A DNA stretch of 64,000 nt from Thuidium tamariscinum (taxonomy: Eukaryota; Streptophyta; Bryopsida; Hypnales; Thuidiaceae): positions 41,569,082 to 41,633,081 of the forward strand of contig OX344751.2 in the NCBI GenBank assembly GCA_947034885.2. Reading direction: 5' to 3'. Shown here piece by piece: positions 296-64,000 of this stretch; position 1 is the first letter of the stretch, and every line of letters begins with the position of its first letter. A model generated the notes under the pieces. It was not told where the DNA came from. It did not search any database and was given only the letters and a program-made list of their open reading frames with translations. The position numbers and the translations under genes were made by a program.

Positions 296-3033
296 ATGAC
301 AACATTAGACCGTTTCCAGAGCTTACGACTTCTACTACTTCTCTTGAGCTGCGTAGGTTCTGAGAAGTTTTGGCACACATGTTTGGTAGGCCACTCCCTG
401 GCCGACGACTCCTTGGAGTCAGATGGAGTTGTGGATACTTCGAGTCCCATGGGCTATCACAAAAGCATCTTTGGACATGTCAAAGTAAGAAATTACCTGA
501 CCATTCACCCTGCGTTCAGTTCAGTTATCTTCATTTCCGAATATCAGAACCTCCGCTTCCAAATTATTTGGCGTTGTTTCTTGGAGGAAATTGTAACAGA
601 AGAGTGCACTTATATAGTTTGTGCAAACATACACAGCTTGGTAACTTCTTTTTCTGTTCGCATTGCGGCGTGTCTATAGAATTTCGTCTTGCATTATGAG
701 TGTTCGTGTGTATCTTATCGAGCTGCTTTATCATACACTGCTAGTAGTGGTTTGCAATTCTCCTGTTGCTGCTCGACATTTTTATATCTGTATTGTTTCT
801 GAGTCAGTTGTCCTTACTTTTTGGCAGTCAAAAGAGAGCTGTGCTCATACTGTAAATGATTGGGAACAACGTCCACACAGTGTTTCCATCACTGATTTTG
901 GTGCAGTAGGAGATGGCAAGACGTTGAATACACACGCATTCGAGAATGCCTTTTTCTATCTCCGGAGCTACGCTGACAAAGGTGGTGCACAATTGTACAT
1001 TCCTGCGGGACGCTGGCTCACTGGAAGTATCACATTGATTAGTCACCTCACTTTATTCCTGGAGAACGGGGCTATTATTCTTGGCTCCGAGGTAATTGCT
1101 TTGAATACGAAACTTTATGCAAGCGTCTCCATGGAAGAAATTCGGATTTTACTACGCTGCACTCGATTGAATGTGTGCATAAAAGAATCGAAGCTTACTT
1201 GCCAATATATGTGCAGGACTTGAAAGACTACCCCACTGTCCCAGGCTTGCCGTCATATGGTCGGGGTCGTGAGCTGCCAGGTCCAAGATATAGTAGCCTT
1301 ATTAATGGCGATGGCCTTGAAGATGTTATCATCACAGGTACTCTTTAAACCCACCGTCAGTCTGGGAGTGAGCTGCGTAGTTTTAGCCGATTTAGTATCA
1401 CACTTGCAATTTTGAGGTCTGGTAACTAGAGGTATAGAAGCAGAGTGTCAGAATATGTCATTATGTCATCTTTCAATATGCCAATTCTTTTCAAGTTTGA
1501 GCTTGTGAATCTAATTTGTGAATCAAAGTGACAGGGACCTGGGATTGTAAACTCTAAATAAGTGATAGTTCAGGTTCTTATAAGAACTGGCGTTCGATTT
1601 CAGGTGACAATGGAACAATTGATGGCCAAGGAGCGGTGTGGTGGAGCGGATTTCTCAACAAAACTTTGAATTACACTCGGCCTCATTTGGTAGAGCTTAC
1701 CGAGTCACAAGACATCTTAATTTCAAATCTTACTTTCCAGAACTCTCCATTCTGGACCATCCATCCAGTCTATTGCAAGTAACATCCTAAACCCAGACGT
1801 AATTTCCCTGAACTCGTTTTTGTTCTGTTAAGATTCATTTTTCACGATGGCACGCCAGAAATTTCCTTGCTGCATTTTCCCGTTGTTCCTCTTCATCTTC
1901 CACAAGATTAAAACTTACTTGCTGCAGGCTCATTCAGCAAACTAATCTTCACAAATATATTCTTTACGAGAACAGAAGTTTTATTAACGTATTATGGTTG
2001 CTTTGCAGGAATGTCGTGGTGAAACACATGACTATCTTGAACCCAAAAACTGCTAAGAACACAGACGGCATTGACCCCGGTACTCCTCCTGACCTTTGCT
2101 CTAGTTGATCGTCAACTGCATGGACTTTTTACCTCTGTGTCTCAGCTGTCCAGAGTAATTATTTTGCATGCATTTGTAGGCACCTGTCAGTCTGCCCCCC
2201 TAACTACTTACAGATCATGTCTAATTAGTTGCTTGTGTTTCATGGCTACTTTGAAGCTATTTGAGTTAGTTGTTGGACGATAAGTCAAAATGACACGTTT
2301 TTGTTTTTTGGGTTCAATTTGTAGACTCTTGCCAACATGTCTGTATTGAAGACTGCTACATCAGCGTTGGTGATGATGCGATTTCTATCAAGAGTGGATG
2401 GGATCAATATGGAACATCTTTTGGCATGCCTAGCAAACATATTCGAGTTCGCCGCATAGTTGCTTTCCCCCATTCTGCTGGAATTTCGTTTGGCAGTGAA
2501 ATGTCTGGTGGCATTTCCAACGTCCAGGTCAGTTGTGAGCGTCCTTGCTTGCACATAACTGCCTCGTTTTCTTTAGACCCAATTTCATGGCTCTGACTGC
2601 GCTTCTCGTGCAGGTTGACGATATGGTCGTCTCTGGCGGCCGATGGGGTGTGCGCTTTAAAACCTCAGAAGGGCGTGGAGGATATATAAGAAACGTCACG
2701 GTGACAAACGTAGTTATGCATTCTGTCAAGACTGCAATCGCTGTCATGGGCAACTATGGAGAGCATCCTGACGAAGACTGGAATCGTTCTGCGTATCCAG
2801 TTGTAGAGAACATTCTTGTGCACAATGTGGTGGGTGAAAATATCACGCAAGCAGGTCTCCTATTAGGGCTGCCAGAGTCGCCTTTCCGTGACATCCGTCT
2901 TGCCAACATAGCCCTTGAAGTCCGTTCAACGAAGAGTATTTGGAACTGCTCTCTGGTGGCAGGATCCTACTCCTTTGTGCTGCCCAAACCATGTGTGGAG
3001 CTGACACAGGAGAATTTTACTGTACTGCATTGA
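296..3033 (+). CDS. secreted GH28 polygalacturonase-like protein, seven exons
   Basis: Probable pectin-degrading glycoside hydrolase family 28 enzyme of the plant polygalacturonase-like clade, acting in the cell wall. Exons: 296-484, 828-1091, 1217-1337, 1604-1778, 2009-2079, 2325-2527, 2614-3033. All introns are GT-AG with matching phases, giving 480 residues, normal for the clade. The N-terminus has a signal-peptide-like run (about residues 9-21, LRLLLLLLSC). The family hallmarks follow in order: HSVSITDFGAVGDG; an LPSYGRGRELPG stretch; ITGDNGTIDGQG; NTDGID with catalytic Asp269 and Asp272; GDDAISIKSGWD (Asp290/291); GISFGSEMSGG; and RFK at 355-357, equivalent to the RIK substrate motif. 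The His of fungal enzymes just before GxSxGS is not in its usual place; a His lies three residues earlier, and plant homologues also vary here. The start was chosen for its signal peptide, the GTAAGA donor and a pyrimidine-rich acceptor. An alternative start at 696 in one longer exon is less convincing. A hairpin and AATAAA-like sequence lie about 250-310 bases after the stop. Confidence 0.88.
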
Positions 3034-3285
3034 TTTTTCTCTTACAACCTGTACATATTCCGCCTATTTTGTGCAGGACGTCTCCCGAGTCAAACTGTTA
3101 CGTAGAATGTATTTCAGATTTATTGTGTTCAGGCAAGGGATTCGTTTCGAGCACATCCAAATTATTGTTCAAGGTTAGCACGTTGACTTAGTTTTAGATA
3201 CCTCCGCTAATACAAGCGTCGCAATTTTGCATTTTATATCAGGCAACACCAAGATTTTTTGAAGAGCTGTAAACTGACTTGTAGA

Positions 3286-3336
3286 CATTCACTGGTTTTT
3301 TTAGGAATAGTACTGATACCAGTGTACCAGTGAATG
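3286..3336 (+). other. stem-loop in the probable 3' UTR of the polygalacturonase gene
   Basis: Perfect 11-bp inverted arms CATTCACTGGT (3286-3296) and ACCAGTGAATG (3326-3336) enclose a 29-base loop. An AAATAAA-like polyadenylation signal follows at once (about 3338-3344). It may be an RNA hairpin near the polyadenylation site; its function is unknown. Confidence 0.5.
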
Positions 3337-3344
3337 CAAATAAA

Positions 3345-4757
3345 TACCTCAGGGAGGTCGTTTTTAATTCTGGGTTCATCTCCTACTTTCTGTGGTCTGG
3401 CTTCTTTTTCGCTTTTGTAATATTCACCAAGACATTTTCCAATCTCGATACCCACTAAGTTGTGGATTTTCTATCACTATTGACTATTGATCAGAAAGAG
3501 TAACTTGCTATGGTCCCATTCATTCATTGGTTCTCAAAGTTAACTCACTTATTGCGAGATGCACTACAATAATTTCATATATGATATCATTTTATACATT
3601 GATTTTGATTTTGTTCTTCATGTGGCTACTGGGAAGAAACAAGAGAAAGAGTTGTTATTCCTCACAAGGTTTGACCAATTATATATGCATGAAAGTTTGT
3701 CCAAAGTTCTAGCATTCTCACTTGATTCCTAAATTGAACCATTCCACAACTAATGGCACAACAATTTGTCCACCTTCCAAATACATGTTGCAGAATCTGA
3801 GTTAATTGTTCTACCCTTTATGAGACGTTCCCAAACCAGATTCAAGTTAACTGTTTGAGATACTTTTCACCCTGGAGATTGCAGTCATTTCCCACTACAA
3901 GACTCTGAATTCAGCTTTTGATGGATTTCAAGTTTGGTACCGACTTCGTTCCTGTATCTGGCAAGAGTTGGTAGTCTCATCCAGTCTCATCCCCTATTTC
4001 AAATTTCATACCCTCCTCCCACATTCTGAGGACTTAGCGGACATCTCTTACAGCAGACTTCGAGATATTCCCCCAACATTCCTCCAATTGGTAGAATGGC
4101 AACTTCGTAAGTAAGAAAATACTATCAAGAAACTGGAATTCAATGACAGAAGTTGAATAGATGATACTGAAATTGCAAGTACGACAATTTATCAGTAATG
4201 AATGTGAGGAATAGCAACTCGTCAAAAACGTTCGCCTGTTCGCCATGAATTGCCAGTCTGCAAATGACTCCCCCTTAATGAACACACCCATGCTCTCAAC
4301 AAACACATCACCTGCTGATCCATGTACTGTTCATATACTGATTTCAGGAGTTCCAACCAAGTCTCAGGTTCACTACTGAAAAAATGGAAATCGAGTGATG
4401 CTCCCATATAGGTGAAAAAAACAGTGCTCTTAATACACTTCGGAACAAGTATGGACAAAGAAGACCTATAATATATACCTACATTCATCACAACCAGGTC
4501 CCTCCTCTGAACGTGTCCCAAAAACGAAGCCAGTACCTCAGCCCAACAGTGCCCCATCCAGGATGCAGGGCAAGTGGAACCAGCGTCCCCGGAAACCACA
4601 CTTCATTTTGCCACAAGCATTGTCCAGTGTAAATGGAGGGAAACAGAAGAGCTCAAAAGGACACAAATCAACATGGGCAGTATCAGCCTCAGCCTGGTAG
4701 TCCTTCAAACGGACAAGAAGCTCAGGAACGTCCATGCCGTCTCATGCACCTAACAAT
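3345..4757. other. intergenic between polygalacturonase and EMSY-like genes
   Basis: The two genes converge on this stretch. No exon was recognised. The part nearest 4757 is probably the 3' UTR of the minus-strand EMSY-like gene. Short open frames here resemble no known family. Confidence 0.4.
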
Positions 4758-6299
4758 CTAACTGTCGTCTCCATCCCCGTCGTCGTCGGCATTGTCCAAC
4801 TCGGCATCAGAGGCGACTTCCCTCTCAGCACCGCCGTTGTGGCCCTCGGAGCCCTCATCCCTTCGCTCATCTTCTTCGTCACTCTCCTCCAGACGATGCC
4901 CTGTTTCCTGAACACTGTGAGGATCTTTCTCCAAACCCATCGAGTGAACAGGAGAGTCCACGACATCGACTCTCTCATCCTCACTCCCATCGTCGGAATA
5001 CGCTGCCAGGGCCGACAAACCCTTCTGAAGCAACTCCTCGTATTCCTTGGCCGACCGCTTTAGAAGGTCCATCTTTACGACGTCCTTCGCATGTTCCGCT
5101 TCGGAGTACTCTTTCAGAAGGGCGACTATCTCAGCTTCCGGGTACAGGATGTGAGTCGGTCGGCCTATCTCGGCTGTCCCATTTCTGTCTTCTTCTCCAG
5201 GGGCCTCTCCTCTCCACGGTCTAGACTGTGGAGTCGGTGCCAACGCGGTCTTGTCATGTGCAGGTCGTCCTCTTTGACCACTCCCTTTCGGTCTCCCCAC
5301 CACACCTCCGTAACCCCCTCGGCCACGTTTCACACCCCTTCCAGCACCTCGTTCAGGAGGAGTAAGACCAGGAACTTTGCCGTTCAATATGACAGGGTCG
5401 GTTCTGGGCTCGGACAGCCACTGTAAATCGTTTCGGTCCATTGCCTTCAAATCCACCCACTCAATACTCTCATCCAGGGTACCCGCATCATAAGCAAGAC
5501 AATGCAACATCGTATCCTTGTTGTAATCTACAATCACTGCCTCATAGTGAATATTGTCTTCCGGCCACCGAATACGGAGCCGCCGACCCACCCAGTTCTC
5601 AACACGCGAATCCGTAGACGGACCTGCACCCTTGTGATTCCGCCAAGGCGTTGAACCCCTTCCACTGCCCACTCCCCCTCGCCCGGAAGGGGGACCTGGA
5701 GTCCCAACCATCGCGGCGCCGCGGCCAGGGACAATAAGGGTATCAGCAATGCCTTTGCTCCGGGACTTCTTGCCGCTAGACATACCCCGGCCCCCGGAAG
5801 CAGAAGGAAGAGTCTGAGGGGCTGGTTTCAGTAGGGGGGCAGGGGGAGGTAGAATCGGAGCAACATTGCCGACCTTTTGCCTTTTCCGACTTTGAGATAC
5901 AGCAGGACTCGGAGAAGTGTCGCGATGGTGCTGCGGCATGCCAGGGTCCTCGCCCGTTTGTCTCCAGGTACGAATCCGTCGAAGGGTCTCATCAAGGGTA
6001 ACTTTTCCCAGCATCTCTCTATGCAGCTCGTCTTCCACTCTTAGCTCCTTCCTCAAATTGGACATGAGCCCTTCCTTGGTCCAAGTAATAACCTCTGACT
6101 GCGCACTGAACGCCCTAAGCAGAGAGTGATACGCTTCGAGTTCAAGCTGGCGAATCTGCTGATCAATGTGGTAGGAGCTTGATGGTTTTCCATTACCACT
6201 GGGCCGACCCTTTCTAACACTCTGAGACCGAACCAACTGGGTAGGGGGGAGGTCGTCATCGTCCGTTCCATCGCTGTCCGACTGGTTATACACCATCAT
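4758..6299 (-). CDS. EMSY-like protein with ENT and Tudor/Agenet-type domains, intronless
   Basis: Probable chromatin-associated regulator of the plant EMSY-LIKE (EML) family, which binds histone marks and functions in nuclear silencing and immunity in other plants. It is a single open frame of 513 residues from the first ATG at 6299; six more in-frame codons upstream begin with TTG, not ATG. Seen in order: an acidic and basic N-terminus; an ENT domain at about 48-120 (IRQLELEAYHSLLRAFSAQS, followed by the LRKELRVEDELHREML and LRRIRTWRQ helices); a Pro/Gly/Arg-rich linker with RG-type repeats; a Tudor-like Agenet domain at about 230-295 (VGRRLRIRWPEDNIHYEAVI, then an IEWVDL stretch); an RGG-rich segment; a helical coiled-coil-like region near 385-435; and a strongly acidic Asp/Glu tail ending DDDGDGDDS. 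Known EML genes have introns within ENT and Tudor coding sequence. The absence here could mean a retrocopy that kept its frame, or a lineage trait. There is no disabling mutation. Confidence 0.87.
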   Translation of the reverse strand: MMVYNQSDSDGTDDDDLPPTQLVRSQSVRKGRPSGNGKPSSSYHIDQQIRQLELEAYHSLLRAFSAQSEVITWTKEGLMSNLRKELRVEDELHREMLGKVTLDETLRRIRTWRQTGEDPGMPQHHRDTSPSPAVSQSRKRQKVGNVAPILPPPAPLLKPAPQTLPSASGGRGMSSGKKSRSKGIADTLIVPGRGAAMVGTPGPPSGRGGVGSGRGSTPWRNHKGAGPSTDSRVENWVGRRLRIRWPEDNIHYEAVIVDYNKDTMLHCLAYDAGTLDESIEWVDLKAMDRNDLQWLSEPRTDPVILNGKVPGLTPPERGAGRGVKRGRGGYGGVVGRPKGSGQRGRPAHDKTALAPTPQSRPWRGEAPGEEDRNGTAEIGRPTHILYPEAEIVALLKEYSEAEHAKDVVKMDLLKRSAKEYEELLQKGLSALAAYSDDGSEDERVDVVDSPVHSMGLEKDPHSVQETGHRLEESDEEDERRDEGSEGHNGGAEREVASDAELDNADDDGDGDDS

Positions 6300-7139
6300 G
6301 CCAGGCAGGTCCAAAAATGACTATATCCACGGTATTTATTTCCAACTGCACTTCACAATCGCCAACCACTGTTAAAAACAAGAAGAAAAAGAAACATTAC
6401 GAGCGGGACAAAGAGGAGATATGAGTAAGTTGGTGATTGAAACTTTCAAAGCATGGGGGACGGCAACATCCCTCCGTTTGGCTGATTTCCTCACTCGACA
6501 AGAAATACTAGTCAACAATGCTTGATCCTAGCAGGAAGGAGGTTCTGAGAAGAGTAAAATTTAAGAAGTGTGACGTACGACCAGTCCGCTACAAAAACTG
6601 ACGAAAAATCTAATTTCAGTGAAAGAGAGTGCAAGGGGCAGTCATGATGCATTCGACTACTGAAATGCCGAGCACAGACAAGAGCAACAACTTAACCACG
6701 CGTTGCTCAACATTTATGAAAAATAAAAAACTCGGAAATTCCTTTTGAAGGCAATAAGACCTACGAACTCGCTGAACCACCACTGCTTAAAAAATAGTGC
6801 CAACGTCGAAAGGCCCTGTTCTTGCAACCATATTCGAGTAAACAAATTACTAGCCTACAACTTTCAGCCCCAAATGATCACGAATCGCAAGCCTCTTGAC
6901 GGTTCAAATGATCTCAAAAGAGTGGGAAATCCTGTGAAACCTGCCAGCAGCCTAGTAGTCACTCTAGGCGGTGTCAGAATGCTCGACTCTCGTCTTTCTT
7001 CCTATTTCGAGACCGGCCATTACAAGTCCCAAATCCTCGTCAGATATGATACTACCCCTGCTGTAGAGTTTTGCAGTCTCGTTTCAGAATTGTCTCCTCC
7101 TTCAGTCTGGCATCTGACACCTATCCTATGCAACAGTTC

Positions 7140-7870
7140 ATGACATCCCAGGGCCTGTAGAAATGGATGTCGAGCCAAGAGCAGCTCGGAAGCTGTATTC
7201 TACTGAAATTTCCGTGGGTCCATCTCTGATTTAAGTAAGAGTCCACGGGAGCCAAAAAAACTCCTGCGGTACCGAAAAACCTAGACTGTGAAGAGCCTCA
7301 TTTCTGCACTTCTGCGTCCACGATAACTAAATAACTCCGTCGCCAGGGGATCCAAAGAAAATAAAAGAACGCAGAACCTCCGCAAATGCACTTCCTCTCG
7401 CCAGCGAGCCCTTCATGCACATATTAATAAAGCATGCAGCCTAGGGATCCCTACCTCTAAAAGAGAAAAACGCTGCAACCGAAGATTAGGAAATCCGTGG
7501 AAACTGCAAGCAGCCTCGCCACTACTCCCAACTGTAACCAGAGCCAGCAGAAACGAGTGTCGAGCTCGAAAGTCCTCTCGAACTAAATTTCTAGTGCATT
7601 CGTTAAGTCCATCACTGAATAAACCGAAACCCCTTGGCGTCCAAAAAAATTTGCGAAACCATCGTCCTGCGGTACCGACAATCCTGGTGCCATATCCCCG
7701 CACCTCCCGCTTCCATAGAAATCTCCATCGTCGAGGGGGCAAAAAAAAGAAAACTAAAACCTCACAGGTATCAAACTCAGAAGCGACACCCTCTCGCGAA
7801 ACTGCGCTCCATGCACATAATAAATAACACCAAGCCCTAGGGTTTCGTACCTCCAAAAAGAGAAGCCTCC
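7140..7870. repeat. diverged ~400 bp tandem duplication
   Basis: Two copies lie roughly 400 bases apart. Shared landmarks in order: GTCGAGC (7169; 7559), CTGCGGTACCGA (7264; 7667), TCCATCGTCGAGG in copy two versus CCACGATAAC..CCGTCGCCAGG in copy one, CATGCACAT (7414; 7810), and CCTAGGG..TACCTC followed by AAAGAGAA (7441; 7836). The copies are heavily diverged with indels. A possible third partial copy around 6925 shares a GGAAATCC..TGAAACTGC..AGCAGCCT stretch with 7488. Confidence 0.6.
7838..7845 (-). promoter_or_regulatory. telobox-like AAACCCTA motif
   Basis: TAGGGTTT on + reads AAACCCTA on the EMSY-like gene strand. This element is frequent in the 5' leaders and promoters of plant growth and translation genes. 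It lies about 1.5 kb upstream of the start codon, so its role is uncertain. Confidence 0.35.
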
Positions 7871-8478
7871 CTCACGCGCGCGCGCCTCCTTGGACCTCAC
7901 AGCAGCACGAGAAAAATCCGCGAGCGCCTCCTTGCCAATCACGACCACCACAGCACGACGCGCCGCCCAGGAACGGAGCCTTGAAGCACATAACTAGGGT
8001 TACATAGAAGCGCAGCGCCTCCGGGGAACTGAAAAGCAAGTGTCCTTAAGTAGAAAACGAGGAGGAGCGCTGGTCCGGCATCGGGGAGGGGGCGGGGAAC
8101 GGGGACGACAACGACGCCGCAAGCGGGCACTCGCCGCAGAAGAGAAGACGCGTTGCAGCAGCGAGGGCAGTAAGGTCCGCCATAGCTGCTCCGGTTGCGG
8201 TTCTTCCACTTCGCGCTGCGCCGAAGCGGGGTTAGGCCCCTTGTGGCACCAGGTGACCGGGAGAGCCGGTGACCCTTTTCCCGCCGCAAGGACGGACCGG
8301 GCCGGTAAGGTCCTTCTGGATGATCTTTTCCCGCGGTGGATGAGGGCTCAGTCGTGCGCATTTTTCGTGACCTGGATCGCGCCATTCCTTTGATCCTTTC
8401 GAGCGCGTAATAATAATGATAAATTTGCAACACTAATTAAGATCTGCAACACTAAATGTCAACTATTGCAACATGTTA

Positions 8479-8705: not shown

Positions 8706-11144
8706 ATGCAATGCACTCTAATCCTCATTTAGTGTTGATAAAATTAATCCCAAAAAGACGAGCTATTCATCATAGAAATCAACCTTTTAAGTATTGTATG
8801 AGCTATTTGCTTAAAAAAACAAGAGCACTTATTGGAGGTCAATCTATTATGAAAGACTTTCTATTTTTAAACAAAATTCCAAGGATGAATGTTTGCACTT
8901 CTTTCCTACATAGAAAGATTCTCTATCATCCATCTGCCACTTAATGTTCACTATGTTTTCCTAAAGTTAAACTTGCAAGGATATGACTAGCACCATAGTA
9001 CATCATCAAAAATTATTCAATTTATGAATCAATAGGTACATTCATCATACAATAATCTTGAAAGTCATCTATTTGCCAATTTTTGGCATGATTGACCTTT
9101 CAAGGTTAAATTTTGGTAATGTTCATATTGAAATAAACTTTACTATATCAATGATGATTACTAATACAAAAATATCAAAAAGAACATTATTTGTCAACTA
9201 AATGAGGATTATAGTAAGTCAAATGATTAGACAAGTAATACTAAACATAAGATAATATGAAATATAAGTATTAGAGTAGGTAGACTATATAGTGAAGGTG
9301 TTTTGTACTTTATAATAAAAATCTATTCGTTACATAAGTGTCTATTACTTAAGGAAATTTCTAACAACTATGAATAATTTTTTTATTTTAACTATGCAAA
9401 GGTGTAGCTTAGGGTAGTTTGAAAATAGTTGTTGGAGAAGATTGTGTATAACTATTCCTTGAAAAGAGACAACCTACCTACTCTCCATATTTTTGCACCT
9501 CCCATGACTACTTTATAAAGCATTTTCTTACAACTCTCCTCATATATATCATATACAGTTATACTTTGATATGAATATATGTCCTTTTTGAATGACTATC
9601 CAATCACAAGGCGGATCCTCCTACAATGATGCAATTATACATGATAGTTTGATGTTTGCAAGGTGTATGATTTAGTGTTGTTTATTAAGTTGAAAGATTC
9701 ATGTGTAGATGAATTAACATTTTTGTTGTTATCTAATATAGTAAAGTAGAATAGTCTAAACAACTTGGATATAATCTTTGAGCAAATTTATTATCTTAAG
9801 TGATTAAAAATATGGAAATGAATCACCTTAACTCCGAAAGATTTATGACTATATTTTTACCAAAAAAATACTCTCTACCTTTTTTAGTATTATAATTAAA
9901 TTATTTATTTATTTGTTTATTTACCTATAAGATCTTGTACTAGAGTTGTATGAAAATTTATTAAAGAATTTAAGAACTTTGACCAACTTGATTGTGAGAG
10001 TTGACCACTTAAAGTGAAAAAAATCTATATTTGTACTTTTCAAACTAAACTATAAGACTTTGAATCATCTTAACTTAATTTTTGCACCAAAGATTTTGAT
10101 TTTGTAATTTCTTATATTTCAAGAGTACATTCATAGTAAGAATTTTTATTCTTAAATTGATTTTCATCCTTGTTAAATTTGAATTCAAGAACAAATACAA
10201 TACGTTCTTTTTTTTAAAATGACCAATTTTTTGTAGGATAAGAAGCTCCTTAATTCCTAAAGATCTTTCATGTTTAGAGACCCAAAATTGTTCAAAATAC
10301 TAGTCTCTAAGGCAAAGCTAAAATGTCCATCTATATTTATTTTTTAAGAAAAATAATTATAGGATTCTATAGTTAACTTGTTAGAGTACATCCTTCTAAA
10401 ATTTGAAGATGTCAACCTTACCAATTGCAAGATCATGATGCTTGGATGTCAAAAAGATGTATTTTCAACTCTTTCCATATGGTTAGATATCATCTTTCAA
10501 ACATTTTACCCAAAATGTGTACATCCTACAATTTGCAAGTCTTCATAATATATTGAAGAAATAAGTTGGAAATACATACAATAATCCTAAGCATTGAGAC
10601 TGATTTGCAAAATTGACAATTTCAGAAAAATCATCATATAGTACTATTTGGAAGAATATTTTGGAATTTAGGTGCAAATAAAAAGTATAGAGTTTGAATT
10701 TTAGATTCTATCTATATAGTTAGATTAACCAATATTATCTCTAATATTTTTTTGTAAATTTTGTAGAAATGGATTTGAAAGGAGTTTTTCTTGACATTTT
10801 GATTTTTTTGAATTTTTGTGTCTTTTGATTCTATGACTTCATTTTAGCAATTCCAAGTTTGAACTAGAGTCAATGCAAGTCAATTGCTTGAAAATTTTTC
10901 ACATTTGCAGTTTAAAAAAAAATGTACTTAAACAACTTCAAATCCAACCTTTGGATAGGACAACAACTTGATTAAGTATCTTTAAAAACTATGGAGACTA
11001 TCATCTAAATTTTAATGAAAAAAGAACCTAAATTTCATTATATACATTGTCTAAAAAATAGATGTCGACACGCTCCAAGAATAATTTTCAACAAAACATA
11101 ATTTTTTCCTTCCTAAAAAAGGAGTAAATAGAAAGAAGTAGAAA
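8706..11144. other. AT-rich intergenic DNA, no gene seen
   Basis: Strongly AT-rich, with many stops in all frames. The piece around 10290-10560 is related to 39220-39370 and 40680-40760 (shared AAGCTA..ATC.ATCTATATTTATTT and TTGTAAGATCATGATGCTTG-like text), so it is a dispersed repeat remnant of unknown class. Confidence 0.5.
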
Positions 11145-11874
11145 GGATCATTGCAAGAAACACTTGTACTATTTTGTATCACACGTTGCATGCTAATTTT
11201 TTTTCAGCCATAACTTTTGTGTTTCGATTCCAAATAACTCAAGATTTATAGAAAAGATACTCATAACTATCATACACCTTTTATAATTTTTCTTATTTTT
11301 CAAAAATGTTTTACTATCCAAAAATAGCCCTCAATTGAATGTCACTCTTTGCAATTTAGGGGTTTTGGGTACTATGGAATATCTTTTTTTAATGATTTTG
11401 AGATGAAATTTGGATGAGATGATCTTATAATAGACTTCTAGCTTTCTAGAGAACGATTTTCAAAAATAGTTAATTTTATGTAGTTGGGAGGTCTACAAAG
11501 TGAGCTTCTTTCTGTTTGTATTTTGAAACATATAAAATATGATTTTGGTGGTTTTTTTAGTGATTGACCATCTCCATAAAGTTTTTGCAAATGTTCACTT
11601 TTTATTTTTTGAAAATACTTATTTTTACTATTTTTGCCTAATTTTTGAATCAAAGTACCTATTTTCTTGAGATTTGGCACTTTTCAAGTTCTCCTTCTTA
11701 AAGAATTTTTCTATCAATTTCCTTCAGTGAAAAACTTCATTTTAGAGGTTTATACATTGTTTGTATTTTTAAAATTAAAAAAAATTAGTTTTCTAATTTT
11801 ATAATACTCCTAAAAAAATCATGAATATTGTTGCAAAACACAACAAAATTGACAAGTGTTTCTTGCAATGACCC
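11145..11874. mobile_element. ~730 bp MITE, 4-bp-TSD family, copy A
   Basis: Terminal inverted repeats: the left end is GGATCATTGCAAGAAACACT and the right end is the complement beginning GGGTCATTGCAAGAAACACT. Interior text is shared with copies B-D: a CATAACTTTTG segment near the left end, TTTAGGGGTTTT in the middle and GGCACTTTTCAAGTTCTCC near the right. The flanking 4-mers are GAAA and AAAA, one mismatch. No open frame of note. Confidence 0.8.
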
Positions 11875-13584
11875 AAAATGATTTAAAATACTAAACTATT
11901 AAAATTTTAGTTAAAGAATTGAAAATTGCCAATTTCAATCGTTATAATGTTATTTATAACTTATAATAAAAAATCTACATCCTATGATTTTTTATTGAAC
12001 TTAAGATGAACTTATTTAAAGTAAAGATTCTACAAGTGCTGACACATAAAAAAATCCTCACAAATTTTGTCTCATTAATCAAAATAGAAAAATGATTAAA
12101 AACTTTCTAGTTCCACATGTACATAAATTTAAATAACCATTTTCAAATTTTTGTTTATTGAAAAAATGATTTATATTAGTTGACTAGGCTAATTCATTGA
12201 AGAAAAAAACTACATATCGTATAATATAATAGCTTATTTTGACCATATAGCCAATAGTTGTGAAAATTGCTAAAGGTGAGAATCTTATAGGCTTATAGCT
12301 ATTTCTCACTGACATTTTGTTTGAAAATTTCAAGGAAAAAAATGAAAATTCCATTTCTAGTGAACTACTCAAAAAATTTATGTTGCCAAGAAAACACTTC
12401 TTGGTCTATAAAGATTAATCTCTAAGATAGTATACATCTTAGTAGATAGATGATAAATATTTGTTTAAACTTGCTATATTAGGAACTATTTGGAATGGAT
12501 GAAATACAATGCAAACAACAATTTTTTTTTGGTTTTGAGCTATATAGTTTTTTGTCATTCAATTTATGACAACATTTTTTTGTACAAGGTTCTCAAATGA
12601 GTCATATTAAAATGGAAGAAAAATACAAAATACAAAAATGAAGATATTTCAAATAAATTGTTGTTAAACCATAATTGATTCTTCTACAAAAGCTCAAGAT
12701 CTATACTTTCCCTTATCCAAGTCTTCTTAATCCTGAAAGGACAAAGCATGTCATAAAAATAATAAACCAAAAATGATCCAATTAATAGATAATTAGGTGT
12801 ACTTTGTTTTTTACAATTTATGAAAGTCATTTATGAAATACTCTTAATGCATGGGTACCTACAATGATTAATAATTACAACTAAGCTAATTATTATTATC
12901 AAGATAATTTCTACTTATTGTATCTTATTGGTAATTGAAATAAGATTTCAGCAAACCTAGTATGAAATATTTGGACATTGTACTTAAATAAATCATAAAA
13001 TTTCAAAATACTATCTCTAAATGTACTAATTACCAACACTAGGTCTCTTAAGGTCTCATGCTTTTAAAATGAGTGTATATATAGAGTTATCAATACAAAG
13101 ATTTTTATAGCATTTTAGGTAGTGATCAACTATAGATGTACATGCTTAGTTCTTAGCTTCTTTATTGGATTAAGACTTTTTTGGAAACTTTTCTAGAATT
13201 TTCTTTGGTTCTCTTCAAGTCTTTAGTATAGATGGTAAGATAGATACATTTGTTTCACCTTAACCTTTCAAATGCTACCTTTTCAATGCACATCCATTCC
13301 TAATAATACTTGTATTCAACCCTTCACCTACATTGTTGATGAACTTATTGTCAAGCTCCTTAGAAAATTAAGTCCTTATTCTTGACTTGATTCAACTTTG
13401 AATTCTTCCTTGCAACAAGAGTTTCTCTTTCAAGTATATGAAAGTTGGCAACAAAGTATGCAATTCAATTTATCCTATCCCATATACTCTCAATTAACAA
13501 TAGCTCATTGATTCTTGAATCCAATGATGGACGAAAGTTTGGTGAAGAAGGGCTTTGGTTGAAGAAGAGAGACAAATTAGCATT
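11875..13584. other. AT-rich intergenic DNA upstream of the kinase gene
   Basis: No gene or clear repeat boundary was found. The last few hundred bases must contain the promoter and leader of the kinase gene starting at 13606, although no GC-richer island marks it, unlike the other genes in the window. Confidence 0.4.
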
Positions 13585-13592
13585 TAGGGTTT
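13585..13592 (+). promoter_or_regulatory. telobox-like TAGGGTTT motif just upstream of the kinase start
   Basis: TAGGGTTT on the coding strand ends 13 bases before the ATG at 13606, so it probably lies in the 5' leader. Telobox elements are common in leaders of plant housekeeping genes. Its position supports the chosen start. Confidence 0.4.
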
Positions 13593-13605
13593 GTCAGTCA
13601 CAACT

Positions 13606-16600
13606 ATGGGCACTAGTCCTTCAAAATCTACTTATGTTGATGCAAGAAAAAAACCCATCATTATGGTACTTGGTAGGCAAGACCTCTCTCAATCTATTTC
13701 TCACATTCTTCTATCATTTTGATATGTAGTTTAAATCAAAACCTTCTTTCATCATATATAAATTCTAAGAAAGTACCACAATAGATAGGTTTATTTTTGA
13801 ATTTCAAGAAGCAAGGTTTTTCAGGGAGGGAATTTTTTGAATTTTTTAGTAATTAATGTGTCTAAAGGATTATTTTGAGGAGGCTATTGTTAACATGCTT
13901 GGAATAGAAATATAATTGAATTTTTTATAAAGAATTTGAATAATACTCTTATTTATGGTTTTTGAAGCTTCTATTTGATTTATAAAGATACTAAATTTTT
14001 AGTTGCTATGTAATTTTATAAGAAATTATGTTTTGGAAAAGTGACATGAACGCAAATTCTTTTTGTGAACAATCTTGAGCTCCTACTATGTGTACTATCT
14101 TTGCAAATGTGTAGGATTGTTTTTAAAATATTTGTTTCTATTGTCCTTGGTTGAAATATTTACATGTAGGTTCATCTACTAGTGATTTCTAGTGAAGTAA
14201 TAGAATGATTGCTTCAAAAGTAGGTAAGTTCTAAAAACATCAAATGGCTTCAAATTTTTTTTAGTAGAAAAGGAAAGGGTGCAAAAAGCATAGAAACTTC
14301 TCTCCATTTTTTCATTTAATGAATTATTTAGGGATTCCATCTTGAATACTTTGTCCAAAACTAGCTATTTGTTTTTTGAAATTTTTTTTTGTGAAAGACC
14401 AAAATGAGTTTTTTGGAAATAATTGCAAGAGGTTAAATTTTCTACTATTGTTTCACATATAAAGTTGTGGATACATGAGAGGTTGTGAACACATGTGAGT
14501 GCATTAAGAAGTCCACTTGTCTTTGTCTCAAAGCATTGTTTTCAAGAAGGTCAAGTGTACTAAAGCATCACATTATATTGGCTTTGAACCAAAGAAGAGG
14601 ATGGAAACTTTGTATTGCCAAAGCCTAAAATTACAATGAGGAAGTTTGACCAACTATCCTACTCAAAAAGCAAGTCAATGATACAAAAACAAAGACTCTC
14701 ATAATTTTCTCCTTATTGTTTTTTATGTGAATGTCAAATGTGTGCTTAATTGTTTGGTTTGGTTTGATGGATGTAGGAGGACCTGGCACCGGGAAGGGTA
14801 CTCAATGTGCTCGAATTGTAAGGGAGTTTGGGTTCAAGCACATTTCATTGGGGGACATCCTTCGATTGGAAATGAAAAATGGAACCCAAATTGGAAAACA
14901 CTGTGCAATTGTTATGAAGGAAGGCAAATTAGTGCCTATAAAAGTTGCAATGGAGCTCATAGAGAAGGCCATGAAGCAATTAGGAGATGCTCCTGGTTAT
15001 TTATTGGATGGGTTTCCACGTAAAGTCAATCAAGCTAAAGAGTTTAAGAAACTAGTATGAGCCACCTATTAATATTCTTGAAACCATCTTCAATTTCATT
15101 AAATTGGTGTAATTATTGGTGCCAAAAATTGTAACAGTGTTCTACTAGAAGCTCTCAAAATTAGAATGGGTTTATATATATCCTAGCAATCATTTTTAAT
15201 TTTGTTAAATTGGACTAATTCTAGGTGCCAAGAATTGTGACATTCATCAATAGAGAGTTTTTTAAAATAGAATTAGCTTATAACTTCAAAATATCATTTT
15301 TATTTCTGTTAAACTAGAGTAGTGCAATTCTTTGTGCCAAAAATGGTAACATTCATCAATAGAACATTGGAATGGTAGAGATTTTCATTTTAGATTGTGT
15401 GCTTTGAAATTTAATGTGATGAAGTTGCAAAATTCCGTCTTGCCAATTTAGCAAAATTGATGTTATTCTCTTTTATTCTATAATTAATATTAGTGTATAC
15501 TTAATTTGGTACATGAAATATAAGCTTATGATGTATATAATTGAAATTATGATAAAAATGCCCCAAACGACTTGTGTACCAAAATACCTATTCCTAGTAT
15601 AAGATGAAGACTCCTATTAATATAATATCTTTATTTAAAATTAGAATCTATATCATTGAAAAATTAAAGATTAAACAAAATAAAAACACATTTTATTTTA
15701 TTAAGTTGGAAAATATGGTTGAGGAAGTGATATGAGGCACCCCTTTAAGGTGTCTCATTTGGACTCTTGTTGCATACACTATTATACAATACACTATTTA
15801 TTTGAATGCTAATTGAACAATCCAACACTATGTACTTTTTTTTACTAAGCAAGATAATTTAGCCAAATTTATTAGTGTGAGACAAACTATTTTCCTTGCA
15901 TTGCATTTTTGTAGTATAAATCATTTCGTTTTCATTTTATTTAGTGGCTGTTGAAAAGAATATCTTCTTGAAAGAATGATTGTAGTTTGGAATTAACTTA
16001 GGTAGTTCTTCATTTGTAAATCAATACACATTTTTTATTGATTGATATTTGATTTATCATACATTCACATTTCATTATTAAGCATTTGAATTAAATATGA
16101 TGTCTATCTATTATTATTAGGTGAAGGCACCATCCTTGGTGATATTTTTACATGCACCCAAGCAAGTGCTTATCCATCGGCTCATGCAACGAGGACAAAC
16201 GAGTGGGCGAGCTGACGACAATATGGAAACTGTTAATAAGCGTCTCATCACTTTCAAAAAGGAATCACTTCCTGTAGTTTCTTACTATGAAGGGATTCAT
16301 TCTACTATTGTCAAGAAGGTGTGTTTCTATTGTCTTCAAGTAAACATTACTACAACTTGCAATAAATCTTGTATCCAGAATTGTCTACAAATCTAAGATT
16401 ATTTTTATACCAAAAGTCATGTGGAACTTGTCGTATTGAGTGTCCTATTACACATGTCGTGTCTAGCATGTTATGCAACCTTCTTTAGATATTACCAAAT
16501 CTTTTAGATAAGAATACAACAGCACATTTTAGATGTATTCCAAGGATCTTCCTAAATGATAGAAGGAAAAAGACTTTAAGTGTCTTAGATATGATCATGT

Positions 16601-17976
16601 TTAATTCCATATCACCTTGTTGAGGAGAACAATTTTGTTTGTAAAAAGGTTTAGGTAAGATTCAACTTTGAGTTCCCAAAGCAATCAATTTTAAAGAGAA
16701 CATACAAGTATATTGAAACTTGGTGCTAAAGAGTGTTATTTATGAAGGTCTTAGCTAGAAAAACTTAGAACTACTTTTGGACTAGATTCACATTGCAAAC
16801 AATATCCCCTAACACCAAGTACAAATGTGCTTTAAGTTGTGTAAATTAGCATTTGGAATGTATGATCATAATGGTGAAGATTCTATATGATTATTTGAAA
16901 TGGAAACCTTCTTTTGATATAACCAAACCTTTAGTCACAAACTTTGCACAAGTTCTAAAGTTCTATTCAATTTCACCAAGTAATCTTATCATCATGCAAA
17001 TTAAACCAAAGTGTTGAAATTTATAGGATATTATGTATTCAATTGAATTATTACCTCCATTTGGAAATACTAGTCTATTTAAATTCTCAGTGCAATCACC
17101 ACTGAATATGGATTTCCAAATGGAAGGAGTAGAGGGTGAATGCAAGAAACACTTGTACTATTTTGTGTCACACGACATGTGCTGATCTGTTTTTTAGCCA
17201 TAACTTTTGCATTTTAACTTGAAATGACTTGAAATTCCTAGGAAAGCTACTGATGACTATCATACATTTTATATAATTTTTTCATGATTTTCAAAATTTA
17301 TTTACTATTTAAATAGTATTAGTGAGTGAATGTCACAAATGCCATTTTGGAGGTTTTTAGTACTATTGAGTACCTTTTTTTTAATGATTTTAAACTCAAA
17401 TTTGGATTTGATGGTCTTCTAGTAGTCTTGTAGCTTTAACCCAGAGGAATTCTAAAAAAAGGTATTTTTTTATGGTGTACAAGTCCACAAAAAGAGCCTC
17501 CTTCTACATTTTTTTGGAAACATGTAAAAAGTGATTCTGGTGATTTTTTGGATTAATAACCATCTCTATAAAGTTTTTGCATATGGAAAATTTTTATTTT
17601 TATTTTTAAGTTTTTATTTTTATTTTTTACTAATTAAAACATCAAAGTATGTATTTTCTTGAGGTTTGGCACTTTTCAAGTTCTCCTACTTAGAGATTTT
17701 TCTAAGAAATTTCCTTTAGTGGTTTTCTTTATCTTAAAGGTCTTTACATTAGTCATATTTTTTAAATTTATTAAAAATTATTTTTCTAATTTTAAAGTGC
17801 TCCTGAAAAAATCAGCCAAACGCAACTAATAGTACAAGTGTTTCTTGCATTCACCCTAGAAATCTTTGGGAGCCAAATGACTAAGAAATTTTCTTCTAAT
17901 GAAACAGATCTGTACAGTCACAACACCGGATGATGTGTACGCACAAGTGCGGGAAGTGGTCAAACAAGTGGTATAA
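13606..17976 (+). CDS. adenylate kinase 1-type nucleoside monophosphate kinase, four exons
   Basis: Small P-loop NMP kinase transferring phosphate from ATP to a nucleoside monophosphate. Exons: 13606-13672, 14777-15054, 16121-16318, 17908-17976, all GT-AG with consistent phase, giving 203 residues, the short AK1/UMP-CMP kinase size. Exon 1 encodes MGTSPSKST..IIMVLG. The P-loop GGPGTGKGT (23-31) is split by intron 1. Then follow the NMP-binding segment HISLGDILR, DGFPR, the AK1-like KVNQAKEFKKL, and the LID RGQTSGRADDN. DGFPR-KVNQ..EF and RG.TSGR.DDN match AK1 better than UMP-CMP kinase. Position 39-equivalent is Leu (SLGD), where adenylate kinases have Thr and UMP-CMP kinases Ala, so specificity is open. 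The gene is embedded in AT-rich DNA with introns of 1.1, 1.1 and 1.6 kb, and intron 3 contains a MITE. The frame is intact. The open frame starting near 14731 is intron read-through, not the true start. Confidence 0.85.
17134..17856. mobile_element. 723 bp MITE, 4-bp-TSD family, copy B, inside kinase intron 3
   Basis: The best-preserved copy. Left end GGGTGAATGCAAGAAACACT and right end AGTGTTTCTTGCATTCACCC are perfect complements, extending to about 29 bp. Target duplication TAGA occurs at 17130-17133 and 17857-17860. The interior matches copies A, C and D. The right end is only 51 bases before the AG that starts kinase exon 4. No coding capacity. Confidence 0.9.

Positions 17977-54867: not shown

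Positions 54868-54958
<91 letters not shown>
54868..54958. repeat. (AT)n microsatellite, ~90 bp
   Basis: Uninterrupted alternating AT over roughly 90 bases. It encodes the spurious Ile-Tyr run of a short open frame. Confidence 0.98.
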
Positions 54959-60945: not shown

Positions 60946-61177
60946 ATTGAATTCCAAAAAAGAAATTCATTTTTTTCTTACTAGATTTTATAATTTCTAC
61001 CTAAAATGTGCTTCAATCCTTTAGGAATAAACTAGATAAGCCACAACTTTTTTGATTCTAATAAAATTGACCTAAACCACTTGAAAAGTTTCAACTTATT
61101 GAAATTCCACTTCTACAATGCATAATAAAGAAGGTTAACCATTGGTCAATTTCTTAAAATTGATATTATTTCACAAG
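60946..61177. other. AT-rich flank immediately before the hAT element
   Basis: No gene. The last eight bases, TTCACAAG (61170-61177), are the presumptive left copy of the hAT target-site duplication. Confidence 0.5.
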
Positions 61178-61347
61178 CAGGGTTGTCTATCCTGACGTGA
61201 CGTGGGCTTTTCCCGTCGGGATGTCATGACGCGGCAGGACGCGTCAGAGGCCGTCCCGAATGCTGACGGCGTCGTCGACAGCGCGGATGAAGTCCGTCGA
61301 CAGCGCGCAGACGGCCTGTCGGCCGCCTCGACGACTGGCCGTCGCGT

Positions 61348-61876
61348 GGACGGACAGAGCGTCCGCGGCTTTAGGGTTTAGGCGCGACGGCCAGGCCGTC
61401 GCCTCGACAGTTTTCTGTTCAGCGGACGGTCACGGCGTCCAGAGTCCGTCCACGCAGCGGGGACGGCCAGAGCGTCCGCGGCTTGTGCACTTCGACGGGA
61501 CGGCCAGGTCATCGCCTCGACAGTTTTCCGTTCAGCGGACGGTCACGGCGTCCAGAGTCCGTCCACGCAGCGGGGACGGCCAGAGCGTCCGCGGCTTGTG
61601 CACTTCGACGGGACGGCCAGGCCGTCGCCTCGACAGTTTTCTGTTCAGCGGACGGTCACGGCGTCCAGAGTCCGTCCACGCAGCGGGGACGGCCAGAGCG
61701 TCCGCGGCTTGTGCACTTCGACGGGACGGCCAGGCCGTCGCCTCGACAGTTTTCCGTTCAGCGGACGGTCACGGCGTCCAGAGTCCGTCCACGCTGCGGG
61801 GACGGCCAGGCCGTCGTCTGGACAGCGGGACGTCTGCTGGACGGCCAGAGCGTCTGCGGGGACGGCCACGACGTCC
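61348..61876. repeat. 113-bp tandem repeats and GGACG-N7-CGTCC palindromes in the hAT leader
   Basis: About 3.7 units of exactly 113 bp begin at 61389, 61502, 61615 and 61728 and are nearly identical; degenerate related DNA lies on both sides. Each unit carries two inverted sites GGACG-7 bases-CGTCC. Exact sites start at 61348, 61424, 61461, 61537, 61574, 61650, 61687, 61763 and 61860. Because 113 is not a multiple of three, the same peptide pieces recur in shifted frames, so the open frames across it are not genes. Confidence 0.92.
61370..61382 (+). repeat. telomere-type motif TTTAGGGTTTAGG inside the hAT leader
   Basis: Nearly two units of the plant telomere repeat TTTAGGG, just before the first 113-bp unit. 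It may act as a telobox in the transposase promoter. Confidence 0.6.
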
Positions 61877-62166
61877 CGTCCGCGGCTGTCCACAGTGCGC
61901 CAACGGACAGGCCGTCGACTGGACGACTGCTGCCAGGCCTTCACAGTATATAGCACAAGCCGTGTATTTGAAGGTCACTTTTCCTTGCTGATCTCTGCTC
62001 TTATGACCTGGTTGGCACACAGCCATTGCACTAGAGTGAAGTCCAAGAAGAGTGTGTGGGAGGAACACTTGCTGTGAAAGCAGTAAATGTTATTTCCACA
62101 TCACATCCAAACTGAATACTAACCTGTTTTGTTTGTGCAGTTTCAAGTGAAGAACCAGTGGGAGCA

Positions 62167-64000
62167 ATGGGAGGGGGGAGGACACAATGGGAACCCTGGT
62201 ACAGGCTACAAGAGGATGGGAAAGTGGAATGCAAGTTCTGCAAAGCGAAGATTAGTTACCGCAAGGATCGCTTGCTTTTCCACTTGGGTTATAGACGAAA
62301 TGACACCCTCCCCGGAGTGAGAATGTGCAACAAGGCCAGTGCAGCAGTGAAGGCTATGTTTTTCAATTGTGGGGGGAATGTTCCTACGGTCTCCGAAGAC
62401 GAAGAGGAACATGATGTGGAAGTGACATCACCGTCATCGAATCCAACGAGGGTGGTACGTGATCAAGAATTACCCAATGCTTCAATCTCAATTAGTGGAG
62501 GGGGAGGAAATACTTTGGGCCAAAATTCTCAAGTTCGATCATCAGAGGCGCCTGTCCCTTCTTCGACCCATAGTCGACCGCTGAGGCAATTATCCGTACA
62601 AGAAGGGATGGACACATCCAAAAAGCAAGTACTAGACAAGAAGTGGGCAAAGTTTTTCTACGAAGCAAATATCCCATTCAATGTGGTGAGACACCCCGCT
62701 TTTGTGGATGCCGTGAAATCAACCTCCGAGTCCAGAGTTCTTTACAAACCTCCACCTTACAATGCCATACGTACGAAGCTCATGACATCAACAAAGGAGG
62801 AAGTGGCTGCACTGGTAGCGGAGAAGACAAAGGGGCCTATCCACAAGTACGGTGTCACTATATGTTCTGACGGATGGGACAATGTCAGCCATCGGCCATT
62901 GATCAATGTAATGTTGTCGTGCACGAGTGGAGAAGTATTTTTGGGATCGGTGGACACTACAGGCGAAAGCAAAGACACTGTTTATGTGGCTAATCGCATG
63001 ATCGATTACATTGACGCGGTGGGGGGACAGAATGTGGTGCAAGTTTGTACGGACAATGCGCCAAACATGCGTTTGGCTGGTACTCAAATTACTCGCGAAT
63101 TCCCTCACCTATATTTCCAAGGTTGTTCCGCGCATGCACTTGACCTTCTACTTGAAGATTGGGGCAAGCAACTTTGGGTGGTCAAAATAGTGAAGAAAGC
63201 AAAATCAATCGTGAAATTCATTCGCACGCATCACATGCCACTCGCCATTTTCCGACGACATTCTCCTAACCTCATGTTGAAGAATCCCATTGAGACACGT
63301 TTTGCGACCATGTTCCTCATGATCGAGCGTTTGGCCGAGGTCAAGGAAGCCGTAGAATCTACAGTCCATGATCCGCAGTGGAACGAATATGTGAGGTCCT
63401 CGAACGCTGCAATACACAATAAGGCAGAAAAGGTTCGACGTAGGGTTCGAAAGGACGAGTTCTGGAGGAGGTGTCTCAACTTTGTGCATATGGTAGAGCC
63501 TGTGTTGGTGGCTCTTCGAGAGTTTGATGGAAAACATCCGGTCATGGGCAAAGCATGGATCGTGATGAAGAAGCTAGAAAAGCATGTTTTGGCTTTGAGG
63601 AATCGACCATTTTCATTGGAGGCAAATTATGCGGACCGTGTTGAATACGCGTTTTACGAACGATGGGATTTGATGAAGACTGATTTGCACTACGCAGCTG
63701 CCCTGCTCAATCCATTCCTCCTTGATGAAATTATACTAATAGACGATAACGAGGCAAAGGAGGCCATTCTTAGAGTACTACGCAAATTGGCAGTTGGAGG
63801 GTTGGGATATGCAGCCGCTTTGTTTGAGTACCAATCCTTTCGAGACCGCCGAGGCATGTTCGCTGGACTTCCCGATGTGAATACTTTGAATTTGGAGCCG
63901 CATGAATGGTGGGATCTTCTCGGAGCCGCTGCTCATACGCTTGCACCTATTGCAAGAAGGATCCTCGCACAAGTATGTTCCGCATCATCATGCGAACGCA
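62167..64000 (+). CDS. hAT transposase with BED-type zinc finger and DUF659-like domain (3' end outside window)
   Basis: DNA transposase of a plant hAT element; 611 residues lie in the window in one frame with no stop. The first ATG after the in-frame TGA at 62113 is at 62167. A good acceptor (TTTGTTTGTGCAG, ending 62140) suggests a leader intron, so a further upstream exon is possible. Seen in order: a BED-like zinc finger at about 10-55 (WYRLQEDGKVECKFCKAKIS, then a His and GVRMC); a Ser-rich linker; a DUF659-like core with FFYEANIPFNVVRHPAF, KYGVTICSDGWDNVSHRPLI, and VCTDNAPNMRLAG (Asp296, a probable catalytic Asp); CSAHALDLLLEDWGK; NPIETRFAT; and the start of the C-terminal hAT dimerisation motif (SASSCER) at the window edge. 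The frame is intact, so the protein may be functional. Confidence 0.9.
   Translation, partial: MGGGRTQWEPWYRLQEDGKVECKFCKAKISYRKDRLLFHLGYRRNDTLPGVRMCNKASAAVKAMFFNCGGNVPTVSEDEEEHDVEVTSPSSNPTRVVRDQELPNASISISGGGGNTLGQNSQVRSSEAPVPSSTHSRPLRQLSVQEGMDTSKKQVLDKKWAKFFYEANIPFNVVRHPAFVDAVKSTSESRVLYKPPPYNAIRTKLMTSTKEEVAALVAEKTKGPIHKYGVTICSDGWDNVSHRPLINVMLSCTSGEVFLGSVDTTGESKDTVYVANRMIDYIDAVGGQNVVQVCTDNAPNMRLAGTQITREFPHLYFQGCSAHALDLLLEDWGKQLWVVKIVKKAKSIVKFIRTHHMPLAIFRRHSPNLMLKNPIETRFATMFLMIERLAEVKEAVESTVHDPQWNEYVRSSNAAIHNKAEKVRRRVRKDEFWRRCLNFVHMVEPVLVALREFDGKHPVMGKAWIVMKKLEKHVLALRNRPFSLEANYADRVEYAFYERWDLMKTDLHYAAALLNPFLLDEIILIDDNEAKEAILRVLRKLAVGGLGYAAALFEYQSFRDRRGMFAGLPDVNTLNLEPHEWWDLLGAAAHTLAPIARRILAQVCSASSCER

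Follow-up and report, generated by a model that had tools for sequence, protein, structure and literature searches.

The window analysed here, a stretch of 64,000 nucleotides from the moss Thuidium tamariscinum, carries near its end, in the leader of a transposase gene, nine copies of the palindrome GGACG-N7-CGTCC. The question raised by this locus is what the palindromes are for: docking sites used by the transposase at the ends of its element, control sites of the promoters of element genes, or simply a product of the tandem repeat in which most of them lie.

Palindromes at the left end of the element

All nine palindromes were recovered at the positions given by a first-pass annotation of the sequence (Table 1), and no other exact copy occurs in the window (0.01 expected; none of 100 shuffles reached nine). 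The 12 bp spacing of the halves, measured from half-start to half-start, and the presence of two sites in each 113-bp unit were confirmed as well. Sites had also been placed in non-unit DNA on both flanks of the repeat; the one at 61860 lies clearly outside the array, whereas that at 61348 proved to be just inside it.

Table 1. Features of the element copy W and of its left flank, in element and window coordinates
Feature	Element position	Window position	Strand	Remarks
Left target-site duplication TTCACAAG		61170..61177		right copy follows immediately on element position 17,074
Left terminal inverted repeat CAGGGTTG	1	61178..61185	+	
Island I1 (left subterminal DNA, leader of the transposase gene)	1-760	61178..61937		34 CCGTC/GACGG
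113-bp tandem repeat		61344..61809	+	4.1 units (Tandem Repeats Finder); unit number differs between copies
Site 1, GGACG-GACAGAG-CGTCC		61348..61364		
Site 2, GGACG-GTCACGG-CGTCC		61424..61440		
Site 3, GGACG-GCCAGAG-CGTCC		61461..61477		
Site 4, repeat of site 2		61537..61553		
Site 5, repeat of site 3		61574..61590		
Site 6, repeat of site 2		61650..61666		
Site 7, repeat of site 3		61687..61703		
Site 8, repeat of site 2		61763..61779		
Site 9, GGACG-GCCACGA-CGTCC		61860..61876		not part of the tandem array; TATA box about 70 bp downstream
TATATA, likely transposase promoter	770	61947..61952	+	in 8/8 copies aligned there
Transposase gene	981-4121	62167..64000 (window part)	+	first ATG at 62167; open frame from GTG at 62158
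Protein kinase gene	5648-7348		-	553 residues from first ATG; Pkinase 35.5 bits (cut-off 31.7)
Island I2	7481-7990			upstream of the kinase gene
Kinase TATA box	near 7503		-	kept in 6/6 copies with sequence
Island I3	11421-12290			upstream of the RING gene
RING TATAAA	near 12261			kept in 5/5 copies with sequence
RING protein gene	12322-14829		+	787 residues from first ATG
Island I4 (right end)	16541-17074			22 CCGTC/GACGG; without a gene

The tandem repeat yields seven of the nine sites (spacer GTCACGG four times, GCCAGAG three times), in keeping with the idea that they are a by-product of GC-rich tandem-repeat growth, in which duplication of a GACGG-rich unit gave rise to functionless pairs of half-sites. 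Collapsing island I1 to one unit, however, left four sites with four different spacers (GACAGAG, GTCACGG, GCCAGAG and GCCACGA), and when an equal number of half-sites was randomly re-placed in 5000 trials, with spacings of 0-24 considered, four exact sites at any one spacing were never obtained (0/5000). This upholds the view, already taken in the annotation, that the sites are more than a by-product of the repeat.

Its contrast between invariant halves and a variable spacer stood in part. The four spacers do differ, but the constancy of the halves follows partly from the search for exact halves, and sites deviating at the outer base are present too (GGACGGCCAGGCCGTCG, three times, and GGACGGCCAGAGCGTCT). 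Conservation of the half-sites across 28-29 copies of the family was not clearly above that of the rest of the island, a point on the side of the by-product explanation; purifying selection on the halves within the family was considered and left no clear signal in these copies.

Exact sites numbered from 0 to 13 in 30 left ends, with 1-13 in 29 of them; a recognisable terminal inverted repeat (TIR) is missing from three of these pieces (the one with 0 sites, the one with 13 and one of several with 2). In a set of 20 leaders (L036-L055), the 12 copies with the closest transposase held 4-13 exact sites and the eight more distant ones 0-6, which may reflect array growth in a recently spreading lineage, shared ancestry being uncontrolled in this comparison. 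Genome-wide, GGACG-N7-CGTCC was reported 1116 times, a figure that counts each site on both strands, the pattern being self-complementary, and the backwards-read pattern 189 times; many of the listed sites repeat the spacers of the present family and are thus not independent.

Extent, copies and age of the element

The element copy of the window, here termed W, is 17,074 bp long, starts at window position 61178 and extends far beyond the window (element position = window position - 61177). The 8-bp TIR CAGGGTTG is present at both ends, the right end reading ...CAACCCTG. Three other complete copies measured 16,970, 16,781 and 18,968 bp, and the 8-bp target-site duplication is perfect in three of the four complete copies (W, A8 and A18), with a single mismatch in A7. 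Members of the hAT superfamily have a short TIR starting with CAGGG and a C-terminal dimerisation region, and DUF659 is usual in those of plants. The whole transposase, the gene of which continues beyond the window, matched both DUF659 (125.0 bits, cut-off 34.7) and Dimer_Tnp_hAT (38.3 bits, cut-off 21.4), the latter scoring 16.5 bits, under its cut-off, in the window part alone. W is a hAT element.

In the genome searched (363 Mb, 19 contigs), 72 transposase copies were scored out of 708 first-look candidates with the window part as query, all at 98-100% identity; the 1061-codon frame was kept in 52 of them, and 18 had at least one stop inside the match. A 25-mer of the left TIR found 354 matches and a 26-mer of the right TIR 303 (both with up to 2 mismatches; control 0 in either case). 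Given so many near-identical transposase copies and TIR matches, the family is therefore young and numerous, as had been annotated. Nested-element relics were considered as the origin of the internal islands described below and ruled out, no TIR-like sequence (up to 3 mismatches) being present within the element.

Along the element, a 918-bp stretch between the transposase and kinase genes (element 4511-5428; L005 5770-6687) is absent at the identical place in A11, A14 and L009 (the alignment jumps from L005 5769 to 6688) and present in A13 (L012); judged from the alignment, it is a gain or loss that divides the older copies.

Three genes and the zinc finger of the transposase

Besides the transposase gene, W carries a protein kinase gene and a gene for a RING protein (Table 1); the latter scored 27.0 bits for zf-RING_2, slightly under the cut-off of 27.3, over the 807 codons of frame scanned. 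A 17-kb hAT element with a constrained kinase and RING protein seems unusual for the superfamily. Among the top-ranked papers on large hAT elements with kinase or RING genes, on hAT elements of moss genomes and on bryophyte hAT MITEs, none was recognised as dealing with the W element, and in the review PMC6431247 the terms hAT, kinase and largest are absent as whole words.

Uncorrected pN/pS values were obtained by comparing W with the older copies: 0.43-0.49 (transposase) and 0.38-0.48 (kinase) with A14, A11 and A13, and 0.48-0.55 (RING protein) with A14 and A11 only, since the piece read of A13 has no RING sequence. Against the young copies (A7, A8, A17 and A18) they were 0.30-0.66, 0.18-0.61 and 0.50-1.18, respectively, the value of 1.18 coming from a partial RING gene of A17, and among the old copies themselves 0.65-0.85, 0.69-0.87 and 0.47 (one pair). 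Stop codons were present in the transposase gene of 5/7 copies, in the kinase gene of 4/7 and in the RING gene of 3/6 copies with sequence. These values and counts together argue for a similar, moderate constraint on all three genes along the lineage leading to W, and many copies are evidently decayed.

The annotation had given the transposase a BED zinc finger. Such a finger is likely, in a C-C-H-C arrangement, but the match is weak: zf-BED scored 12.4 bits in the whole transposase and 15.9 bits in its N-terminal part, under the Pfam cut-off of 20.6, and was matched by four of eight family members (best E 1.4e-4). Eight aligned N-terminal domains share the invariant residues M1, W11, C22, C25, H39, G41, C54, F65, C68, G70 and P73, which include the C-C-H-C arrangement at the transposase N end. 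The finger was modelled with a mean pLDDT of 63, rising to 79-88 for 10-residue blocks across residues 11-40. A structural search with this model returned no significant match, the BED domain of ZBED1 (2ct5) standing at rank 5 with E 1.7, and the finger profile gave a single weak and irrelevant match against PDB sequences. By analogy with Hermes, a BED-like CCHC finger would make the transposase the first candidate for binding the sites.

Half-site islands at both ends and upstream of the TATA boxes

The half-site pentamers CCGTC/GACGG occur 114 times in W, and 100 of them are inside four islands totalling 2674 bp (Table 1), compared with 26 in the 61,177 bp of the window outside the element. 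The islands coincide with both ends of the element and with the region upstream of each TATA box, the left end doubling as the upstream region of the transposase gene; neither TATATA nor TATAAA was found in I4 on the strand scanned. As in Ac, one short repeat is thus present in several copies at both ends.

The inverted pair of half-sites, for which GAC-N9-GTC is the wider rule, is distributed differently, with 14 pairs in I1, five in I2, one in I3 and none in I4. Collapsed to one unit, I1 retained seven; with every gap from 0 to 24 considered, 41 of 5000 re-placements gave as many. I2 holds a local duplication (88% alike), and its three pairs after collapse were reached in 64/5000 trials at the gap pre-set from I1 and in 1363/5000 over all gaps; in I3, with its single pair, and in I4, GAC-N9-GTC was not above chance. 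Two exact palindromes are located in I2, far from both ends of the element, and the I2 site adjoining the TATA box, GGACGGCCGATCCGTCC, is unchanged in all six copies with sequence, other I2 sites varying in some. Beyond position 1000 of W there are eight pairs, two of which (10498 and 13084) are in no island.

A test of the 3' subterminal DNA on the full element had been proposed in the first-pass annotation, and the outcome was divided. The right-most 534 bp share the half-sites (17-23 pentamers) in all four complete copies, but no pair and no exact palindrome was found in any of them. The annotation had taken the lack of similar sites at the 3' end or in other copies as evidence against its model, and half of this is what we observed: the palindrome is missing from the right ends and present in nearly all left ends.

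An asymmetry of this kind is known from Hermes, in which, according to excerpts of PMC10368747, the transposase has a CCHC finger, two BED domains bind the left-end quasi-palindrome STR1-STR2 and the right end is contacted by none. The palindromes of W, likewise exact at the left end only of the two (4/4 complete copies), could accordingly be left-end docking sites used in transposition, the right end making do with single sites, and at I1, where gene and left end coincide, promoter and end functions are inseparable. The two palindromes of I2, at the putative kinase promoter, do not fit this explanation well; moreover, the first exact site of W is 170 bp from the tip, whereas in the same excerpts Hermes has one palindrome, with AAGT/AAGC repeats, within 27 bp of it. 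W further differs from Hermes in its GAC-N9-GTC pair, placed from 170 bp inwards, repeated at an internal promoter and absent from the three derivatives described next, on account of which we regard left-end docking as unlikely.

Ends-only derivatives

When the perfect TIR matches listed, 67 at left ends (C1 to C4 at 21.46 Mb) and 100 at right ends, were paired, two size classes emerged: 14 left ends pair at 841-929 bp and 32 at 15.5-20.7 kb, with none between and 21 unpaired. A 29-base unit from the arrays of the short class was located at 232 places in the genome and, compared by eye, occurs at least once in all 14 short pairs. Three of these 14 were read (L065, L066 and L067); each has a perfect 8-bp target-site duplication and resembles W only in its outermost 124 bp on the left (86-87%) and 140 bp on the right (96%). 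They contain no GGACG-N7-CGTCC and no GAC-N9-GTC, nor any TATATA or TATAAA on the strand scanned. Half-sites, on the other hand, number 41-50 per derivative (33, 30 and 39 CCGTC in L065, L066 and L067, respectively, and 11 GACGG in each). The CCGTC are direct repeats, mostly 12 bp apart (17/32, 15/29 and 20/38 intervals), and since CCGTC is mainly in the left part of L065 and L066 and GACGG in the right, the half-sites point alike relative to each end.

If the derivatives depend on the same transposase, as their shared ends suggest, they would have moved without palindromes, which speaks against left-end docking as far as the mover can be read from these ends. The claim that the palindrome is a general transposase-dimer site for both ends was not supported, no palindrome being present in the right ends (4/4) or in any of the three derivatives read. 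It is therefore the array of CCGTC half-sites that constitutes the shared feature of the ends. Among the copies read, pairs occur almost only before genes and therefore resemble a control switch more than a mobility signal; the palindrome appears to go mainly with promoters.

By eye, the middle of L065 and L066, between the left array and the right end, holds a long internal inverted repeat, one arm of which begins CCGATTAGGGCTGGCCGGCTG; its hairpin could feed small-RNA silencing.

Other hAT families

A genome search with DUF659 gave 150 scored matches, and nine further leaders were read (L056-L064). The annotation had suggested scanning related elements for the halves and their spacing; the GAC-N9-GTC core was indeed found in a related family, but, as noted above, copies of the W family show no clear excess of conservation in the halves. 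In this second family the transposases of L057 and L058 are 61-62% identical to that of W over residues 1-258, with CGACGGTCACGGAGTCC-type sites in their leaders, and the DNA of L062 is 89-93% identical to that of L057 and L058. GAC-N9-GTC occurs five times in L062, six in L058 and once in L057, in repeat units of 28 or 55-56 bp as opposed to the 113-bp unit of W, and still recurs in L062, the units of which are only 69-84% alike. With the repeats collapsed, three pairs were left in L058 (139/5000 at the pre-set gap) and two in L062 (256/5000), and neither number was exceptional once all gaps were considered; the second family thus gives modest evidence for the spacing. Because W and L058 have the spacer GTCACGG in common, descent from one site explains part of their likeness, and the two sets may simply be so descended. 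No TATATA or TATAAA follows the island in L057, L058 or L062, so that pairs and such TATA boxes are not always together.

These results also bear on the by-product explanation. Its case is helped by collapsed I2 and the second-family leaders, which are not outstanding over all gaps, and is weakened by the kinase island, where the exact spacing returns, and by a second family that has it within different repeat units; added to the one-unit test of I1, this leads us to consider functionless repeat growth quite unlikely.

Further leaders carry other arrangements. GTC-N8-GAC and GAC-N5-GTC repeats (GAAGTCCGCGCCCTGACTTC) were found in L056, the transposase of which is 37.5% identical to that of W over residues 1-265, and in L060 and L063, and GAC-N5-GTC repeats (GACCGCGGGTC) in L059 and L064. 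In all five the leader repeats end just before a TATA box; no repeat was seen in the leader of L061. Several families thus have inverted words arrayed ahead of the transposase, with word and spacing differing. The use of GAC/GTC words in the leaders of several families, and the position of the sites upstream of TATA boxes, would suit a host transcription factor recognising inverted GAC/GTC and recruited to drive the element genes. The spacings, however, change from family to family (N9; N8 and N5; N5), a better fit to element-specific proteins, and we give recruitment of a host factor little credence.

CpG decay in the islands

Motif arrays upstream of genes are also known from the Arabidopsis VANDAL elements, which belong to the Mutator-like superfamily. 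Excerpts of PMC5735166 describe the targets of VANC as arrays arising by tandem repetition of a motif in non-coding parts, with copy number changing between copies and the motif between families. The W family resembles them in having a short motif in tandem arrays upstream of genes, gain and loss of units between copies and motif change between families, so that an element protein might bind the islands and keep the element unmethylated. Against such anti-silencing, CpG sites decayed 2.9 times as much as other C/G in I2 and 3.9 times in I3, compared with 2.0-2.3 in gene bodies. Changes of the C-to-T type are in excess in the gene bodies, which is what a methylated element should show, and I2 and I3 do not depart from this. 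I1, with 69% GC and a CpG observed/expected ratio of 1.29, gave a low value of 1.2, resting on 23 changes; for I4 the aligned copies were too few. Hypomethylation of the islands, judged in this way, is not supported. W belongs to another superfamily than VANDAL. Its extra genes encode a kinase and a RING protein, and protection of the VANC kind is, in our estimation, improbable.

A proposed cis-regulatory system of the element

The reading we tentatively favour, with a little less than an even chance of being right, combines half-site binding at the ends with palindromic control of promoters in a three-protein, 17-kb hAT element. Its basic unit would be the CCGTC/GACGG half-site, present about 100 times in four islands. 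The element's transposase would recognise the ends by their arrays of single half-sites, much as AAACGG serves in Ac. At the putative transposase and kinase promoters half-sites are additionally paired as inverted GAC-N9-GTC, with an offset of 12 bp, roughly a helical turn, and a dimer, most likely of the transposase acting through its BED-like finger, would bind the pairs and set the expression of the element genes. Near a TATA box the pair would be the tighter dimer site, and could thereby govern the amount of transposase, of kinase and perhaps of RING protein, repression at high dose being as possible as activation. More speculatively, the targets of the kinase and the RING protein could be the transposase or host silencing.

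A bolder form of this proposal, which we find doubtful, is that of a self-contained regulon, in which one element protein reads one half-site in two grammars: direct arrays of single sites would mark the ends for mobility, and inverted pairs, with halves a helical turn apart, the promoters of the transposase, the kinase and perhaps the RING protein, the output of which they would set. Divergence between families would then consist of joint changes in the zinc finger and in the word and spacing of the pair.

Comparison with Ac and CACTA elements

In Ac, multiple short subterminal repeats (AAACGG) are bound cooperatively by the transposase, and gene-less Ac/Ds derivatives keep the ends and the repeats, as described in excerpts of PMC3260210. 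The W family too has subterminal repeats and gene-less derivatives that keep ends and half-sites, and the Ac hexamer ends in the ACGG of GGACGG. Ac, however, is 4565 bp long and encodes a transposase, whereas W has 17 kb and three genes, as well as GC-rich islands, inverted pairs at fixed spacing and internal promoter islands.

Large size and asymmetric subterminal repeats able to pair are shared with CACTA elements (En/Spm and soybean Tgmt*), the palindrome-forming repeats of which are bound by an element-encoded protein according to excerpts of PMC2613891. These belong to another superfamily with another TIR and use a separate DNA-binding protein, TnpA, and the excerpts mention no kinase or RING gene.

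At the left ends of transposons promoter and end signal overlap, and the purposes of repeats are hard to tell apart. In the W family the two presumed roles are separated: I2 has pairs away from any end, the right end has half-sites with neither pairs nor a gene, and the derivatives have half-sites only. Both roles are therefore testable in one system with more than 300 recognisable ends, and the several families with differing pair spacings in one genome could serve to trace the joint change of a transposase and its binding sites.

Other features of the element and the window

AT-rich repeats lie at element positions 15284-16430, in the 3' third, and self-matches revealed related inverted copies at 9499-9816. 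Elsewhere in the window, the frames at 663-3033 resemble what we take to be a plant polygalacturonase-like gene, and a perfect TA run of 45.5 copies is located at 54868-54958.
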